A stretch of 64,000 bases of DNA from Nitrospira sp. (GTDB lineage: Bacteria > Nitrospirota > Nitrospiria > Nitrospirales > Nitrospiraceae), in NCBI GenBank assembly GCA_030123625.1, contig CP126121.1, positions 2,148,179-2,212,178 on the forward strand. The letters are read 5' to 3'. Shown here piece after piece: positions 6,449 through 22,387 of the stretch. Made by a program: the position numbers and the translations under genes. Position 1 is the stretch's first letter; each line of letters starts with the position of its first letter. A model generated the notes under the pieces. It saw only the letters and a list, made by a program, of their open reading frames with translations, had not been told where the DNA came from and did not search any database.

Positions 6449-7741
6449 TCATTGGTCAATGTTATGATGCGGCAGTATTTTCGGCTGGTCCCATCCCAGT
6501 CGCTTCAAAAATAAGATTGCGATCCGCTTCTTCACTGTGAGCCGGTAGCTCAGTCGGTAGAGCATCGCCCTTTTAAGGCGAGGGCCCTGGGTTCGAGTCC
6601 CAGCCGGCTCACCAATAAATTCAAACCCTTCCGTTCCAGCCACCGCAACCGCAGGTCGTCCATAGGACAATCCATAGGACATTTTGAAGGCTTTATCTAG
6701 CGCCGATACGGCCTCACGAAGCTTTTTATCCCACTCAGGCCCCCCATGTGAGTAACTGGCGGTCATCCCCGGCATGCGATGACCCAGGAGCGCCTGTCTC
6801 ACTTCATAGTCCACGCCAAGCCCCTGCAAACGGGTCGCAAAGGTGTGTCGGAGGTCGTGAAAGTGGAGATCGTGGATCTTCGCCCGGTCGCATGTTCTAG
6901 CCCAGTATTTCTTGAACGCCCGTAGATGATTCCATCGGCGGAACACTCGCCCGTCGACGAGTGAAGGCAGTGGGTCTCGGAGGGCCCACAAGGCGGCCGC
7001 GTTCAGAGGAATGCGCGGCGGGGTGCCTTTCAGTCTCGTCGTACTGGGCGGTAGGACCAACCACCAGCCGTCCGCTTCTTCTCGGATCCAGGATCGATCG
7101 ATACTCAAGAGCTTGGCTTCTCGCAAGCCTGTATTCAATTCGACCACGATGATGCGCCACAATTCTAAGAGCGCCTCAGGGATGACACGATCTTTGAGCA
7201 GCCGAATTCGATCAAGCTCATGAACCTCCGCGACACGGGTCCGCCGTTGAGTGTCCGGGAGTTCCACCGCTGTAAGCCGGTTTTTGTCGAGCCAGTCATA
7301 GCGGACGCCCAGGTTCAGCACCCGCATCAGCACTTGCCACTCACGTCGAATGGTTCCGGCCGCAACCCCAGCGGCCTGGCGCTTGAGCACATAGTCCAGG
7401 CCGTCCTTGGCCGTGAGAGAAACAAGTGACCGATCACCAAAAGCCGGCAAAAGGTGATTCTCAAGGATGCCCTTCGGGCGTGTGCGATCGACTCGTTTCT
7501 TCAAACTGAAGCTGTCCCAAAACAACGGCACCAGGTCGCGAAGAGTCCATCTATCTTGCCGGCCCTCAGGAGTGGCAAGTTGCGCCTGAATTTTTGCAAT
7601 CATCGTGACCGCAGCTTCTTCAGCTTGGTCCTTCGTGAGGTTGTATCCAAGTAGGGGTCGATATCGCTGACCCTTCCAACGGACGTACAGATCGAACGCC
7701 GTGCCGGCCTTCGTCTGTCGTGAGGTGATCTTGTACGTCAT
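6449..7741 (-). CDS. Tyrosine recombinase / site-specific integrase
   Basis: A 430-residue phage-type integrase. It has an N-terminal arm-binding segment, a SAM-like core-binding region around residues 60-155, and a catalytic domain with Arg207 (NTGLREAKLL), His295-x-x-Arg298 (HDLRHTFAT), His321 (LLGHR) and the nucleophile Tyr330 (TASYSHGG). It should excise and insert the surrounding element at tRNA-Lys. The gene reads through the whole tRNA-Lys on the opposite strand and ends in host DNA. Its last 38 residues (from 393) are therefore supplied by the chromosome and would differ in the excised circle. Start is 9 bp after the HTH gene, suggesting co-transcription. Confidence 0.93.
   Translation of the reverse strand: MTYKITSRQTKAGTAFDLYVRWKGQRYRPLLGYNLTKDQAEEAAVTMIAKIQAQLATPEGRQDRWTLRDLVPLFWDSFSLKKRVDRTRPKGILENHLLPAFGDRSLVSLTAKDGLDYVLKRQAAGVAAGTIRREWQVLMRVLNLGVRYDWLDKNRLTAVELPDTQRRTRVAEVHELDRIRLLKDRVIPEALLELWRIIVVELNTGLREAKLLSIDRSWIREEADGWWLVLPPSTTRLKGTPPRIPLNAAALWALRDPLPSLVDGRVFRRWNHLRAFKKYWARTCDRAKIHDLHFHDLRHTFATRLQGLGVDYEVRQALLGHRMPGMTASYSHGGPEWDKKLREAVSALDKAFKMSYGLSYGRPAVAVAGTEGFEFIGEPAGTRTQGPRLKRAMLYRLSYRLTVKKRIAILFLKRLGWDQPKILPHHNIDQ
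6539..6614 (+). tRNA. tRNA-Lys (TTT), integration target
   Basis: A complete 76-nt cloverleaf with acceptor GAGCCGG/CCGGCTC and encoded CCA. The anticodon loop CTTTTAA lies between TCGCC and GGCGA, giving TTT for lysine. The T arm carries GGTTCGAGTCC. Its 3' part from 6567 is repeated exactly at 22340-22387, so this is the attachment site that was restored to a full tRNA by integration. Confidence 0.96.
6567..6614 (+). repeat. attL core (48 bp) within tRNA-Lys
   Basis: Identical over 48 bp to 22340-22387. It covers the anticodon-loop-to-CCA part of tRNA-Lys, beginning GCCCTTTTAAGG and ending GGCTCACCA. Sequence identity stops sharply on both sides. Confidence 0.95.
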
Positions 7742-8138: not shown

Positions 8139-10628
8139 TCATGCGGAAACCCCCCTGAGGCGCAACACCGACGGCAGCTCTTTCACCACCGACTTCGAAA
8201 TGGCTCGCCCATCGAGTTCCGTGATGATTGTCACCGGTCCGCCTTGCCCACCGCCGCCGAACACGTCGCGCATGAATGATGCGCCGCGCTTGTTGAGCGG
8301 AATGACGGCCTCACTGCTCCCGGCTTCGCCCACCATGCCGAGCGTCGGCCCGGTCACGATGCCGCCGTCCGCAAACGCAAAGGCCATGAGGGCCCCGATT
8401 GCCGCCCCGATGATGGCCACGCCGGCCATGATCGCGACCGCGTAGGGAATGCCGAAAATCGTGGAGCTGGCGGCCCCAGCAATGGACGACAGAAAGGTCA
8501 TGAGGATGTCGCCGATCGTGGCAAACATGGGAATGATGGTTTCGCTGAAGAATCCAGTGATCGCGCCAGTGATAGCCCCAAACGTGCCCGTGATCGCGAT
8601 CCCCGCTCCCTCCCAAATCCCAACGGTCGCCGTCGCGGCGGCTGCATCCCCGGCCACGATCGTGGCGTTCTTCGCCGTATTAATGCCCATCTCGGCGGCA
8701 GCCGCCGAGGAGATGATCCCCAGCCTCACCGATGCAGTGACCGCCTCTCTCGCGAGGATCTGTACTCCTAAGTTCAAGAACCCCTGTAACACGGCCATCT
8801 GTGTCGACTTCCAGGCTTGCTCCACGAAATTCCCACCATTCACGGCAGCATTCGCGAGACCCGACGTCCAAGTCGTCGTAATTTGCGAGATGGAAAAGGC
8901 ATTGCTGTCCACGATGGCTTTCATTTGCTGCTGAAAAAAGGAGGGGTACGACTGGATCGCCTGTCGGCGCTTGGTATTCAACTCGATATCGAGATTCTCG
9001 AGCTCAGCCGCCCGCCTTTTTTCATCGAAAATGGACTCTTCGATTTTTCGTTTCCGCAGCGCCCCTTCGGCGTCGATCAACTGCATCCTGGCGCGGATTG
9101 CGTTCTCCGAGTTGCCGAAGAGGACACCCTCCGTCTGAAACATGGCCTGCTGGGCTTCATCCAAGACTTTGGCGTGGTCCACCGCCATTTCGAGCGCATC
9201 GTTCCGACGCAGCCAGGCCGCTTTGTTCTTGTCGAGCTCCGCTGTTCCTTTCGCTATCTGATCTGCGGCCATTGCGATGGCTTGTTCCCGCGTCAGCTCC
9301 GGCATGATGTTTAAAAGACCACGCACCGCCGCTTCCTTGGCTTCAATCGCTTCGACAAACGGGCCGCTGGTGGGCGGTTTCGAGAGTTCTTCATTCAGCA
9401 ATCGCACCCGATCCTCCTCCATGACCATCTGCGCGAAGAGTTTATTGCGCTCCGCCTCCTCGGCTCTCATCGCTGCCATCTTCGTATTGTGCATTTCGTT
9501 GAGAACCTTCCCGAGAGCCTCCTGGGCATGTTGCTCTGCGCGGAAGTCCACCACATGGGAGTTCTGATCAGGACCTTGGCCGATCAGCTTGGTGGCCGTG
9601 ACCTTCACTTCCGGCACTTGGAGCACCGGCTCTTTATCAAGTGCGTCGATGGCACGCCGTACCTTGATGAGCTTCTCAGCTTCCTTGTTGATCAGACTGA
9701 TGTTGTTCAGCGCTTGCTTCCAGGCCCCACTGCTGAACGCCTCCCTCGAAAACAAGACGGAGCCCAGCTCCTTCGCGGCAAGTCCGATATGGGTGATCCG
9801 GATCGCCAATGTATCCAGTGCGACATCCACCTCACGGGCCACGTGCGCAAGAAATCCGAGAGCCTCGGCCAGTAACTCGGCGCCGAGTTTTACGGTGGGC
9901 GCAAACACTGATCCCAGATTGAGCTTGAGGGCATTGGCCGCGACGCCCAGATCATCCAAAGCCTTGTCCGCCTGTTTGAGCGCCTTATTTTGCAGATCGG
10001 ATAATTGGGCGCCGAAACGCTGTGCGGCATTCATCGATTCGTCGAAGGCCTCGCTGCCTTCATTCAGCATGGGAATCAGGTCCAGCCCGGCTTTTCCTAA
10101 AAACTCGATCGCCAGCCTGGCCTTGTCCGCCCCATCCGGCATGCTCTTGAACCGGTCCGACAAGGCACGAATCACCGATTCCGTCGATCCCAACTCGTTG
10201 ACTGAGAGGCCCATTTCGTCAAATGCCGCTGCGGCTTTACTGGCTGGATCCTTCGCTTCCACCATTTTCGATGACAGCGTCTTCATGGCCGTCGTCAAGG
10301 ACTCCGCTTGAATATCGTTCTCTGCCATGATCACAGACCAACTCTGGAGCGTTTTTAAGGCGATGCCGGTCTTCTGGCTCAATTGATCCAGCTTATCGAC
10401 CTGTTCGGCGGCGCTCGCGGTGAGCGCCACAGCTCCGGCCGCTGCCGCGGCGCCGCCCTTCGAAAAATTCATGAAATTGTCGAGGGCTTTGCCGAGGCTG
10501 CCGCCGATGGCCTGGCCTGCCGATTCCGCCCCATCCGTGAAGCGATCCAGCGTCCGCTGGGCCTGCTCCATCGCCTTGATGAATGGATTGTTATCAGCGA
10601 CAAGTTCGAGCGCGAGTCGATTGGCCAT
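8139..10628 (-). CDS. Phage tail tape measure protein
   Basis: An 829-residue protein with the tape-measure plan. It has a helical N-terminal region, with DNFMNFSKGGAAAAAGAVAL and KTGIALKTLQSWS resembling the conserved tape-measure domain. Long alpha-helical, Ala/Glu/Lys-rich stretches run to about residue 590. A hydrophobic Ala/Gly-rich segment spans about residues 620-760, and a GGIVTGPTLGMVGEAGSSEAVIPL motif sits near the end, common in tail tape measures. It would set tail length and help DNA entry. SD AAAGGAG precedes the ATG. It directly follows the small terminase gene, an abnormal neighbour that suggests a large deletion between them. Confidence 0.88.
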   Translation of the reverse strand: MANRLALELVADNNPFIKAMEQAQRTLDRFTDGAESAGQAIGGSLGKALDNFMNFSKGGAAAAAGAVALTASAAEQVDKLDQLSQKTGIALKTLQSWSVIMAENDIQAESLTTAMKTLSSKMVEAKDPASKAAAAFDEMGLSVNELGSTESVIRALSDRFKSMPDGADKARLAIEFLGKAGLDLIPMLNEGSEAFDESMNAAQRFGAQLSDLQNKALKQADKALDDLGVAANALKLNLGSVFAPTVKLGAELLAEALGFLAHVAREVDVALDTLAIRITHIGLAAKELGSVLFSREAFSSGAWKQALNNISLINKEAEKLIKVRRAIDALDKEPVLQVPEVKVTATKLIGQGPDQNSHVVDFRAEQHAQEALGKVLNEMHNTKMAAMRAEEAERNKLFAQMVMEEDRVRLLNEELSKPPTSGPFVEAIEAKEAAVRGLLNIMPELTREQAIAMAADQIAKGTAELDKNKAAWLRRNDALEMAVDHAKVLDEAQQAMFQTEGVLFGNSENAIRARMQLIDAEGALRKRKIEESIFDEKRRAAELENLDIELNTKRRQAIQSYPSFFQQQMKAIVDSNAFSISQITTTWTSGLANAAVNGGNFVEQAWKSTQMAVLQGFLNLGVQILAREAVTASVRLGIISSAAAAEMGINTAKNATIVAGDAAAATATVGIWEGAGIAITGTFGAITGAITGFFSETIIPMFATIGDILMTFLSSIAGAASSTIFGIPYAVAIMAGVAIIGAAIGALMAFAFADGGIVTGPTLGMVGEAGSSEAVIPLNKRGASFMRDVFGGGGQGGPVTIITELDGRAISKSVVKELPSVLRLRGVSA

Positions 10629-18820: not shown

Positions 18821-18991
18821 ATGCCAGCCAAGTCACCAGAACCACAAAGGCAACAGATCGGGGCACGAGTTGAACAAGAACTCATAACGGAAGTGCGAGT
18901 GCTCGCCCTTCGCCAACGTCGACGCTTTAACGAGTTGATTGAGGAAGCGCTGAAGGATGTGCTGAAGAAGTACCGGGAGAAGGGGAAATAG
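18821..18991 (+). CDS. Arc/ParD-like ribbon-helix-helix protein
   Basis: A 56-residue protein with RQQIGARVEQELITEVRVLA as strand plus first helix and RRFNELIEEALKDVLKKYRE as second helix, an RHH DNA-binding fold. No ribosome binding site is visible, in line with a leaderless start predicted from the promoter at 18784-18812. It is divergent from the other RHH gene and probably represses one or both promoters. Its 3' end and following sequence recur in decayed form at about 19830 and 20230. Confidence 0.72.
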   Translation: MPAKSPEPQRQQIGARVEQELITEVRVLALRQRRRFNELIEEALKDVLKKYREKGK

Positions 18992-19094
18992 AGGATCTGC
19001 AGCGTATGGGCTGATCAGACCTTGGAGAGAGCCTCCTTGGAGTCGGGCCTCCTGCCTATTGTATTCTGGTGACGAATCTCCACGGTGAGGGCGC

Positions 19095-19684: not shown

Positions 19685-19971
19685 CGAACAGCGCACGTTT
19701 CTATTTTGTTATTTGAGGTAGTGTCTCAGCTACCTCTGCAAAATATCACCGCCCTGTTCACTCATCACTCTAGTGTCTTCGTGACTCAGACGGCACTATG
19801 AATACCCCTAAGGCAATCGATGGGATGACATGATTGAAGAAGCCGAAGGGTTATCTGAAGAGGTACCGCGAGAAGGGAAATAGGTGATCTTCAGCTTTGC
19901 GGCTGATAGGGAGCCTTTGGAGGCACCGCAGGCTATGGAGCAGCAGTAAAACCCAACAGCGCGGAGGAATT

Positions 19972-20205: not shown

Positions 20206-20405
20206 TTGCCTAGCGTGGGCATTACTGTCTCAAAAAATACAGCGCGAAGGGGAATAGGATGACCTTCGGGTAACGGCTGACAGGATTCTTTGGAGCACAT
20301 GCGGCAGCACAAAAAGAAAGCTCCATCCTTTTGCGAGGGCGAACAGCAGCAGGTTGGAAGAAGCAGACACCGGTAGCAGGTCATGGTCTGGAGAATCGGT
20401 AAAGC

Positions 20406-21281
20406 ATGAGGATCTCATTACCTCAAGAGGTACGACACGATCAAGCTGGTTTTGAAACACTTGCCCGGCTTTATGCTAGGACCAAGGATAGTTCTCTCGA
20501 TAGGATCGAGATTGATATGATGAAGGTGAGTTGGTTCGACGGCGATATGTGTGCTGCATACGGTGCCTTGCTCTATCGGCTCGGAAGCAATTTGAACAAT
20601 TTGCTCCTGTCAAATATTCAAAATTCTGTTGAGCAAATCCTTTCCAAGAATGGGTTCCTGAGCAACTATGGTCGTGTCAAAATCCCCGATACGTGGGGCA
20701 CCACGATTCCTTATCAACGGTTTGATGTAAAGGACGATCGATTTTTTGCCAGCTATATCGAACAGGAGTTTGTCCAGCGGCCTGAGATGCCCCGAATGTC
20801 CAAGGGACTGATCAAGAAGTTCAGAGAGAGCGTCTTCGAAATTTTCAGTAATTCCGTCCTCCATTCACGGACGGAACTTGGCATCTTCAGTTGCGGGCAA
20901 TATTTTCCCCGGAGAAATCGCCTCGACTTTACTGTGGCAGACTTGGGGATTGGTATCAGGAGGAATGTGAGCGATAGCCTAGGTCTGCATATGACAGCGC
21001 CGGCGGCCATTGAGTGGGCAACCAGTGATCGCAACACGACGAAGACGGGCTCTATTCCCGGCGGTCTAGGCCTCAAACTCCTGAAAGAGTTCATCACGTT
21101 AAACAAGGGGCGACTTCAGATTGTTTCTGATAGCGGCTATTGGTGTTTGGATAAAGGTGCTGCTATGGTGGCAGCCCTTCCCTTTGAGTTTCCTGGTACT
21201 GTGGTAGCTATTGAAATCAACACAGCAGATAGGCAATCTTATGCTCTCTCTTCAGAGGTCAATGACACGGACATCTTCTAG
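20406..21281 (+). CDS. STAS-like plus GHKL ATPase protein
   Basis: A 291-residue protein. The N-terminal 85 residues (RIEIDMMKVSWFDGDMCAAY...) look like a STAS-type fold. The C-terminal part is a histidine-kinase-like ATPase with N box FEIFSNSVLHS near residue 144, G1 VADLGIGI near 177 and G2 GGLGLKLLKEF near 219. There is no phospho-acceptor His region, so it is closer to anti-sigma/MutL-type GHKL ATPases than to a sensor kinase. It leads a three-gene operon with a STAS-like DUF4325 protein and a PIN nuclease, next to the right end of the element. Confidence 0.82.
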   Translation: MRISLPQEVRHDQAGFETLARLYARTKDSSLDRIEIDMMKVSWFDGDMCAAYGALLYRLGSNLNNLLLSNIQNSVEQILSKNGFLSNYGRVKIPDTWGTTIPYQRFDVKDDRFFASYIEQEFVQRPEMPRMSKGLIKKFRESVFEIFSNSVLHSRTELGIFSCGQYFPRRNRLDFTVADLGIGIRRNVSDSLGLHMTAPAAIEWATSDRNTTKTGSIPGGLGLKLLKEFITLNKGRLQIVSDSGYWCLDKGAAMVAALPFEFPGTVVAIEINTADRQSYALSSEVNDTDIF

Positions 21282-21302
21282 AGGCCACGGGAGAATCTCA
21301 CC

Positions 21303-21650
21303 ATGAGCGAGACGCTTACAATATCTCTCCTGGAAATCGTGGGAAGTCCGTTATGTGTTGCGTCCGAGGATGGTCAAAAAGTGCACGACAGGATCGCAGG
21401 TGCAATGCGAGAGGGGAAAATGGTGAGCGTGTCTTTCTTGAATGTGACTAGTCTTACTTCCGCATTTCTCAACGCTGCGATCGGCCAGCTCTATGGAGAG
21501 TTTGGGTCCGACGAAATCCGGAGCAAGCTGAAGGTTCGCGATATTCAGTCCGACGATCGAGGTCTATTGAAGCGAGTGGTAGATACGGCAAAGGAATATT
21601 TCAAAGACCCCGAACGCTTTAAGAAGGCAAAACGGGTTGCCATGGGCTGA
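21303..21650 (+). CDS. STAS-like DUF4325 protein
   Basis: A 115-residue protein with the DUF4325/STAS-like pattern: VHDRIAGAMREGKMVSVSFL, then TSLTSAFLNAAIGQLYGEFG and a C-terminal helix ending in FKKAKRV. DUF4325 proteins are usually paired with GHKL ATPases and are thought to act as their binding partners, as in anti-sigma/anti-anti-sigma pairs. Here the gene is 21 bp after the ATPase gene. GGGAG precedes the ATG. Confidence 0.8.
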   Translation: MSETLTISLLEIVGSPLCVASEDGQKVHDRIAGAMREGKMVSVSFLNVTSLTSAFLNAAIGQLYGEFGSDEIRSKLKVRDIQSDDRGLLKRVVDTAKEYFKDPERFKKAKRVAMG

Positions 21651-21659
21651 TGAAGTATT

Positions 21660-22205
21660 GTGAACGTTCGACGGCTTTCCCAGTATCGGTTCAGCGCATC
21701 TGATCGGCTTCTCTTCGACACAAACGTCTGGCTTCACCTCTATGGGCCCCTTCCTTTTTCTCTCGATTCTCGTGCGAAGATATACTCAGCAGCTTTTAGG
21801 ACCATTCTCCAAAATAAGTGCAAGATATTTCTCGATGTCTTAGTGCTTTCCGAGTTCGTAAACGTCATTGCTAAACATGGATACAACGCGACGTTTCCCC
21901 CATCCAGTGGAAGCCGACCGACGTTCAAGGCGTATCGCAATAGCCCATCTTTCAATGCAGTGGCCAAGGAAATCACTCAAGCGTGTAAGAGAATGTCTTC
22001 GGAAAGCCAGCACATTGATACCGACCTTCCTTCATTCGATGTGAGCAAGATCTTCGGCGAATTTGAAAGAGGAAAGACCGATTTCAATGATCTCGCCCTA
22101 GCCGAGCTTTGCAGGACGCGAAACCTCACGATTGTGACTGATGACGGGGACTTCAAGGGACACGGCCTTACAATTCTGACCGAAAACCGCAAGCTCCTTC
22201 CGTAA
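21660..22205 (+). CDS. PIN-domain nuclease
   Basis: A 181-residue PIN-fold protein from a GTG start. Acidic residues expected of the active site are visible: Asp in LLFDTNVWLHLYG near residue 20, Glu in VLSEFVNVIAKHG near 65, Asp in KTDFNDLALAEL near 143, and Asp in IVTDDGDF near 162. PIN proteins are metal-dependent RNases, often toxins. No adjacent antitoxin is seen; instead it follows a GHKL ATPase and a STAS-like protein, which may control it. The gene is 9 bp after the preceding stop. Confidence 0.85.
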   Translation: MNVRRLSQYRFSASDRLLFDTNVWLHLYGPLPFSLDSRAKIYSAAFRTILQNKCKIFLDVLVLSEFVNVIAKHGYNATFPPSSGSRPTFKAYRNSPSFNAVAKEITQACKRMSSESQHIDTDLPSFDVSKIFGEFERGKTDFNDLALAELCRTRNLTIVTDDGDFKGHGLTILTENRKLLP

Positions 22206-22339: not shown

Positions 22340-22387
22340 GCCCTTTTAAGGCGAGGGCCCTGGGTTCGAGTCCCAGCCGGCTCACCA
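22340..22387 (+). repeat. attR core (48 bp copy of tRNA-Lys 3' part)
   Basis: Exact copy of 6567-6614: the anticodon-to-CCA part of tRNA-Lys without its 5' half. It marks the right end of the integrated element. No gene is seen from 22388 to 22688. Confidence 0.95.

Follow-up and report, generated by a model that had tools for sequence, protein, structure and literature searches.

Three genes in a row, encoding a STAS/GHKL ATPase, a DUF4325 STAS-like protein and a PIN nuclease, stand beside an attR site in a Nitrospira genome, and their arrangement raises the question of whether they form a defence system and, if so, which one. The window, i.e., the whole stretch of DNA analyzed here, is 64,000 nucleotides long, and the trio occupies positions 20406–22205. 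An earlier sequence-only reading of this DNA had described an operon of these three families at the cargo end of a mobile element, and had suggested a partner switch releasing an RNase, with a hint that the system was novel. We are confident that these genes make up a VapKSC module of the toxin-antitoxin/abortive-infection type, which is cargo of a prophage relic or phage satellite integrated in the genome. The hint of novelty does not hold, as VapKSC was published in June 2026 (PMC13373217), though PADLOC-DB 2023 has no model for it. The system is thus already known, and the mobile, stand-alone Nitrospira copy is a new member of it.

Organization of the Trio

The genes vapK, vapS and vapC form a three-gene operon on the plus strand. 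The first, vapK (20406–21281, +), encodes 291 aa, with a STAS domain (residues 1–90) followed by a SpoIIAB-like GHKL serine kinase domain (97–276). The protein begins with the STAS domain and has no N-terminal HTH; its residues 138–260 match HATPase_c at 3e-4, a value under the Pfam gathering score. After a gap of 21 bp, vapS (21303–21650, +) encodes a predicted DUF4325 STAS-like antitoxin of 115 aa (Pfam 2.5e-17), made of a STAS domain and a short tail, without wHTH. Nine bp further, vapC (21660–22205, +) starts with GTG and encodes a putative PIN-domain RNase toxin of 181 aa (Pfam 1.5e-6), of the VapC/FitB kind. The three co-directional ORFs and their Pfam domains therefore confirm the operon as it was first described.

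VapK was modeled with AlphaFold2 from an alignment of 19 sequences (pLDDT 88.7). The top structural match of the STAS domain was TM1442 (Z 11.1), and those of the GHKL domain were five SpoIIAB entries (Z 11.8–12.6), with histidine kinases, MutL and HSP90 ranking below them. Because SpoIIAB entries are the best structural matches, VapK resembles the GHKL type of the partner-switching serine kinases. The trio shares with SpoIIAB-SpoIIAA and RsbW-RsbV the folds of both VapK halves and the logic of serine phosphorylation, but differs in having no sigma factor, its target being a PIN nuclease.

Relatedness to Escherichia VapKSC and Other Known Systems

The vapKSC system was described in EMBO J on 9 June 2026, and VapS-VapC of Escherichia sp. 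E4736 was crystallized (PDB 9Z7O) (PMC13373217). In a PDB sequence search, the Nitrospira VapS matched 9z7o_A, "Escherichia VapS", at 1.8e-12, and VapC matched 9z7o_C, "Escherichia VapC", at 0.0014 over residues 2–179. The structural search with the VapC model gave weak PIN/VapC matches in the PDB (best E 0.035); the absence of 9Z7O among them is meaningless because the library ends in April 2026. The trio shares with the system of strain E4736 the K-S-C gene order, the HTH-less STAS-GHKL kinase, the protein sizes, the VapS phospho-serine and the VapC catalytic residues. An intact copy in an E. coli prophage (L070) aligns across all three proteins. The Nitrospira copy differs from the Escherichia one in being carried by a Nitrospira element, in having what would be a Trp instead of a Phe at the proposed ssDNA contact of VapK, and in sequence: measured against L070, VapK, VapS and VapC are 30, 28, and 21% identical. 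The low value for VapC, against a near-twin of the solved toxin, counts against the identification as VapKSC.

Two other known systems were compared with the trio. It has in common with VapBC type II toxin-antitoxins a PIN toxin of the same kind, but no VapB DNA-binding antitoxin adjoins vapC; the neighbor is the DUF4325 STAS-like protein, a kinase-controlled antitoxin, and VapBC was therefore rejected. With PADLOC (PADLOC-DB 2023), the sole match was a partial one to DrmA, in which only the GHKL and STAS-like parts align with one model of 1750 residues, PDLC02567. DISARM is ruled out by size and gene content, as there is no large DrmA helicase. Positions 140–273 of this model match VapK and positions 338–384 match VapS (window 20406–21650), so some proteins labeled as DrmA may carry a fused GHKL-STAS pair.

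Conserved Residues and Proposed Mechanism

Experiments on the Escherichia system demonstrated the toxicity of VapC and the antitoxin activity of VapS, which inhibits the RNase VapC; with a phosphomimic in place of S48, VapS neither bound nor neutralized VapC (PMC13373217). The operon gave about 2 logs of protection against a phage, and this protection was lost with VapC D28A, VapS S48A or VapK F54A (PMC13373217). The activation of VapK by ssDNA is a model that the authors built by analogy with CapK and based on an AF3 prediction and on the F54A mutant, Escherichia VapK being insoluble (PMC13373217).

We aligned the Nitrospira trio with E. coli L070 and 21 other relatives (23 in total). The VapK N-box Asn, N149 (codon 20850–20852, +), is invariant in 23/23, within the invariant motifs E145/N149/H153 (N-box), D179xG181xG183 (G1) and G220xG222L (G2). 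VapS S53 (codon 21459–21461, +), the equivalent of the Escherichia phospho-site S48, is Ser or Thr in all 23 sequences. VapC D20 (codon 21717–21719, +) is the equivalent of the catalytic D28, needed in Escherichia for toxicity and defence, and E65, D141, D144, and D162 are also conserved. As for the C-terminal extension through which VapS inhibits VapC in this system, it is present by length after residue ~92, with weak conservation. As for the ssDNA contact of the published model (VapK F54, CapK W68), VapK W43 (codon 20532–20534, +) was proposed as the counterpart, being the sole strictly aromatic column within residues 36–59 (W in 20/23, F in 3/23). The matching Phe of E. coli L070 is at position 49, an offset of 5 from F54. 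W43 is thus the likely counterpart of F54, by a mapping that goes through a relative with shifted numbering.

In the proposed mechanism, VapS would bind VapC at rest and block its RNase site. VapK would then be activated, in the published model by ssDNA arising from phage infection or DNA damage, and would phosphorylate VapS at Ser53. Phosphorylated VapS would let go of VapC, which would cut RNA, probably tRNA or rRNA, so that growth would stop and the spread of the phage would be limited. By homology, such a partner-switch release of an RNase in defence appears well supported: the switch foreseen by the sequence-only reading has been shown for the homologous VapKSC (PMC13373217), and the conservation of the key residues suggests, by analogy, that it operates here. 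For the Nitrospira copy itself, we infer the kinase activity, the ssDNA trigger, the RNA target and the phage protection.

The Integrated Element

A tRNA-Lys gene (6539–6614, +) contains the attL core (6567–6614), and an exact 48-bp repeat of its 3′ end forms attR (22340–22387, +), as had been proposed for this side of the trio. A tyrosine integrase (6449–7741, −; Pfam Phage_integrase 3.7e-14, phrog_1 1.2e-42) lies at the end opposite the trio, which is the last cargo before attR, with 134 bp between the end of vapC and the repeat. The element also encodes an AlpA-like HTH protein, a tail tape-measure protein, a terminase small subunit, an HNH protein and a replication-initiation protein; with a length of about 15.8 kb, it is a prophage relic or satellite. 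Since the integrase ORF extends in antisense across the tRNA-Lys gene and the attL core, the integrase has a different C terminus in the integrated form (430 aa) than in the excised one (409 aa).

A leader-like repeat of 37 nt occurs three times (18962–18998, 19855–19891, 20229–20265), with 70% identity to the first copy. Each copy precedes a small cargo gene, and the third lies ahead of vapK. When the 200 bp upstream of vapK were searched as DNA against the genome, one short partial copy was found elsewhere, inside the element. No defence gene adjoining the trio was identified in the window, and the copy is stand-alone and element-borne. None of the remaining genes of the element is common to the other trio loci, so the movement of the trio is not tied to this one element. 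The sole integrase-like match was in L003; with hslVU-like genes after it, it looks like a core XerC-type gene and was rejected.

Conservation of the Trio

A profile search of 396 Nitrospirota genomes revealed 16 VapK loci at 219 bits or more. VapS and VapC are present in 15 of them, and the sixteenth (G105) runs off its contig; in G255, VapC is split into two ORFs. Eleven weaker Nitrospirota loci (at most 121 bits) have VapK and VapS without VapC in the stretch read. Pairwise identities correlate at 0.97 for K-S, 0.90 for K-C, and 0.90 for S-C, with 0 of 1000 permutations as high, which indicates that the three genes are co-inherited; these correlations include the relatedness of the loci and are, alone, no test of interaction. 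VapC is the fastest-diverging of the three proteins.

Outside Nitrospirota, the trio was found in Desulfomonile-type, Desulfuromonadales-type, Caldilineaceae, Latescibacterota, Coatesbacteria, and Sulfurimonas MAGs (with a shortened VapC ORF in Sulfurimonas), as well as on a Deinococcus plasmid and in a Streptococcus prophage. The three-gene order, put forward earlier as a check, is thus conserved across several phyla, with the three genes kept together. When viral contigs were scanned with VapK and with Escherichia VapC and VapS, a single truncated locus of the Escherichia type was recovered (L069).

Separate, more distant pairs of a GHKL kinase and a STAS-like protein of about 100 aa were also observed (L071–L077, L097–L107). 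These pairs have no adjoining PIN gene and no constant neighbor, and the Ser is apparently kept in the S proteins seen. In L073, a patatin phospholipase gene is located 427 nt further on.

Linkage to Defence Operons

Twelve of the 16 Nitrospirota trios are attached to defence operons, of type I restriction (8), type III restriction (2), or Hma (2), which the authors of PADLOC named as a candidate defence system (PMC8565338). The trio follows type I restriction genes in G212, G255, G401, G402-C91, G311, G367, G105, and G352. It follows Mod-Res in G027, lies between Mod and Res in G091, and is inside Hma operons in G124 (hmaA-vapKSC-hmaB-hmaC) and G402-C27 (hmaA-small ORF-vapKSC-hmaB). In the four others (G000, G300, G120, G405), no such partner was seen within the stretch read; a short ORF of G120 is similar, by eye only, to the N terminus of the G091 methylase. 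Beyond this set, the trio also follows type I genes in G001 and type IIG genes in G030, two further Nitrospirota loci. In L080 (7580–9369), L139 (664–2318), L078, L142–L147, L151, and L152, the trio either separates hmaA from hmaB (two loci) or forms the tail of hsdR-hsdM-hsdS operons. Stop/start overlaps are frequent among these vapKSC-hsd/hma loci, and in several of them vapK overlaps the restriction or Hma gene or is separated from it by at most 3 bp (for example L142 at 6676, L146 at 6624, and L080 at 7580–7583 and 9366–9369). The vapK of L011 overlaps the gene of a type III methylase, and in a Desulfuromonadales locus (L007, 5001–6777) the trio sits between cas5/cas7 (cas7c) and cas4-cas1-cas2 of a type I-C CRISPR-Cas system. 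The check on neighboring defence genes thus gave R-M, Hma and CRISPR-Cas operons in the relatives.

This linkage bears on what the trio is for. It might mainly stabilize the integrated element as a VapBC-like addiction module, phage defence being secondary, and its place at the attR end of such an element and the relatives on a plasmid and in prophages would fit. We consider this unlikely, as every complete copy has a dedicated kinase, which addiction does not require, many chromosomal copies belong to R-M or Hma operons instead of standing alone on elements, and the Escherichia homologue protects against phage in a manner that depends on VapK F54 (PMC13373217). A general stress switch, which would slow growth upon DNA damage or another host signal without a selected anti-phage role, is suggested by the nearest folds, those of an anti-sigma kinase and its antagonist, and the vapKSC authors state that stress and immune roles may blur (PMC13373217). 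The operon linkage of the relatives to R-M, Hma and CRISPR-Cas, and the phage protection measured for the homologue (PMC13373217), make this quite improbable. Finally, a transcription regulator pair of the CapK-CapS type beside an unrelated PIN gene is hardly credible: the logic of a GHKL kinase phosphorylating a STAS-domain Ser is identical, but CapK has an N-terminal HTH and CapS, which represses transcription, a C-terminal wHTH (PMC13373217), whereas VapK and the 115-aa VapS lack these domains, the output is a nuclease, and VapC is co-inherited in all strong matches, such a conserved trio already contradicting an unrelated PIN gene.

We thus retain a VapKSC defence module. The published study found an immune gene at 10 kb or less from 36% of vapKSC and discusses a link to restriction for CapKS; Hma is absent from its main text, which does not describe operon fusion for VapKSC either (PMC13373217). 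The attachment of 12/16 trios to type I, type III, or Hma operons suggests that VapKSC is often a growth-arrest back-up of DNA-attacking systems. From the observed linkage we infer a functional coupling, in a fuller hypothesis to which we give an even chance: VapKSC would frequently be a built-in second stage of type I/III restriction, Hma, and occasionally CRISPR-Cas operons, co-translated with them and reading ssDNA from the front-line system or from a resisting phage, so that failure of restriction would lead to RNase-driven arrest. Element-borne copies such as the one studied here would then be its detached, mobile form.

These data independently confirm that the family of VapKSC systems extends to Nitrospirota and moves with mobile elements. 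The coupling with restriction and Hma in the relatives is the most interesting lead, as the operon linkage predicts that restriction or Hma and VapKSC would act as layers of a single defence, ssDNA being the signal passed from one to the other.
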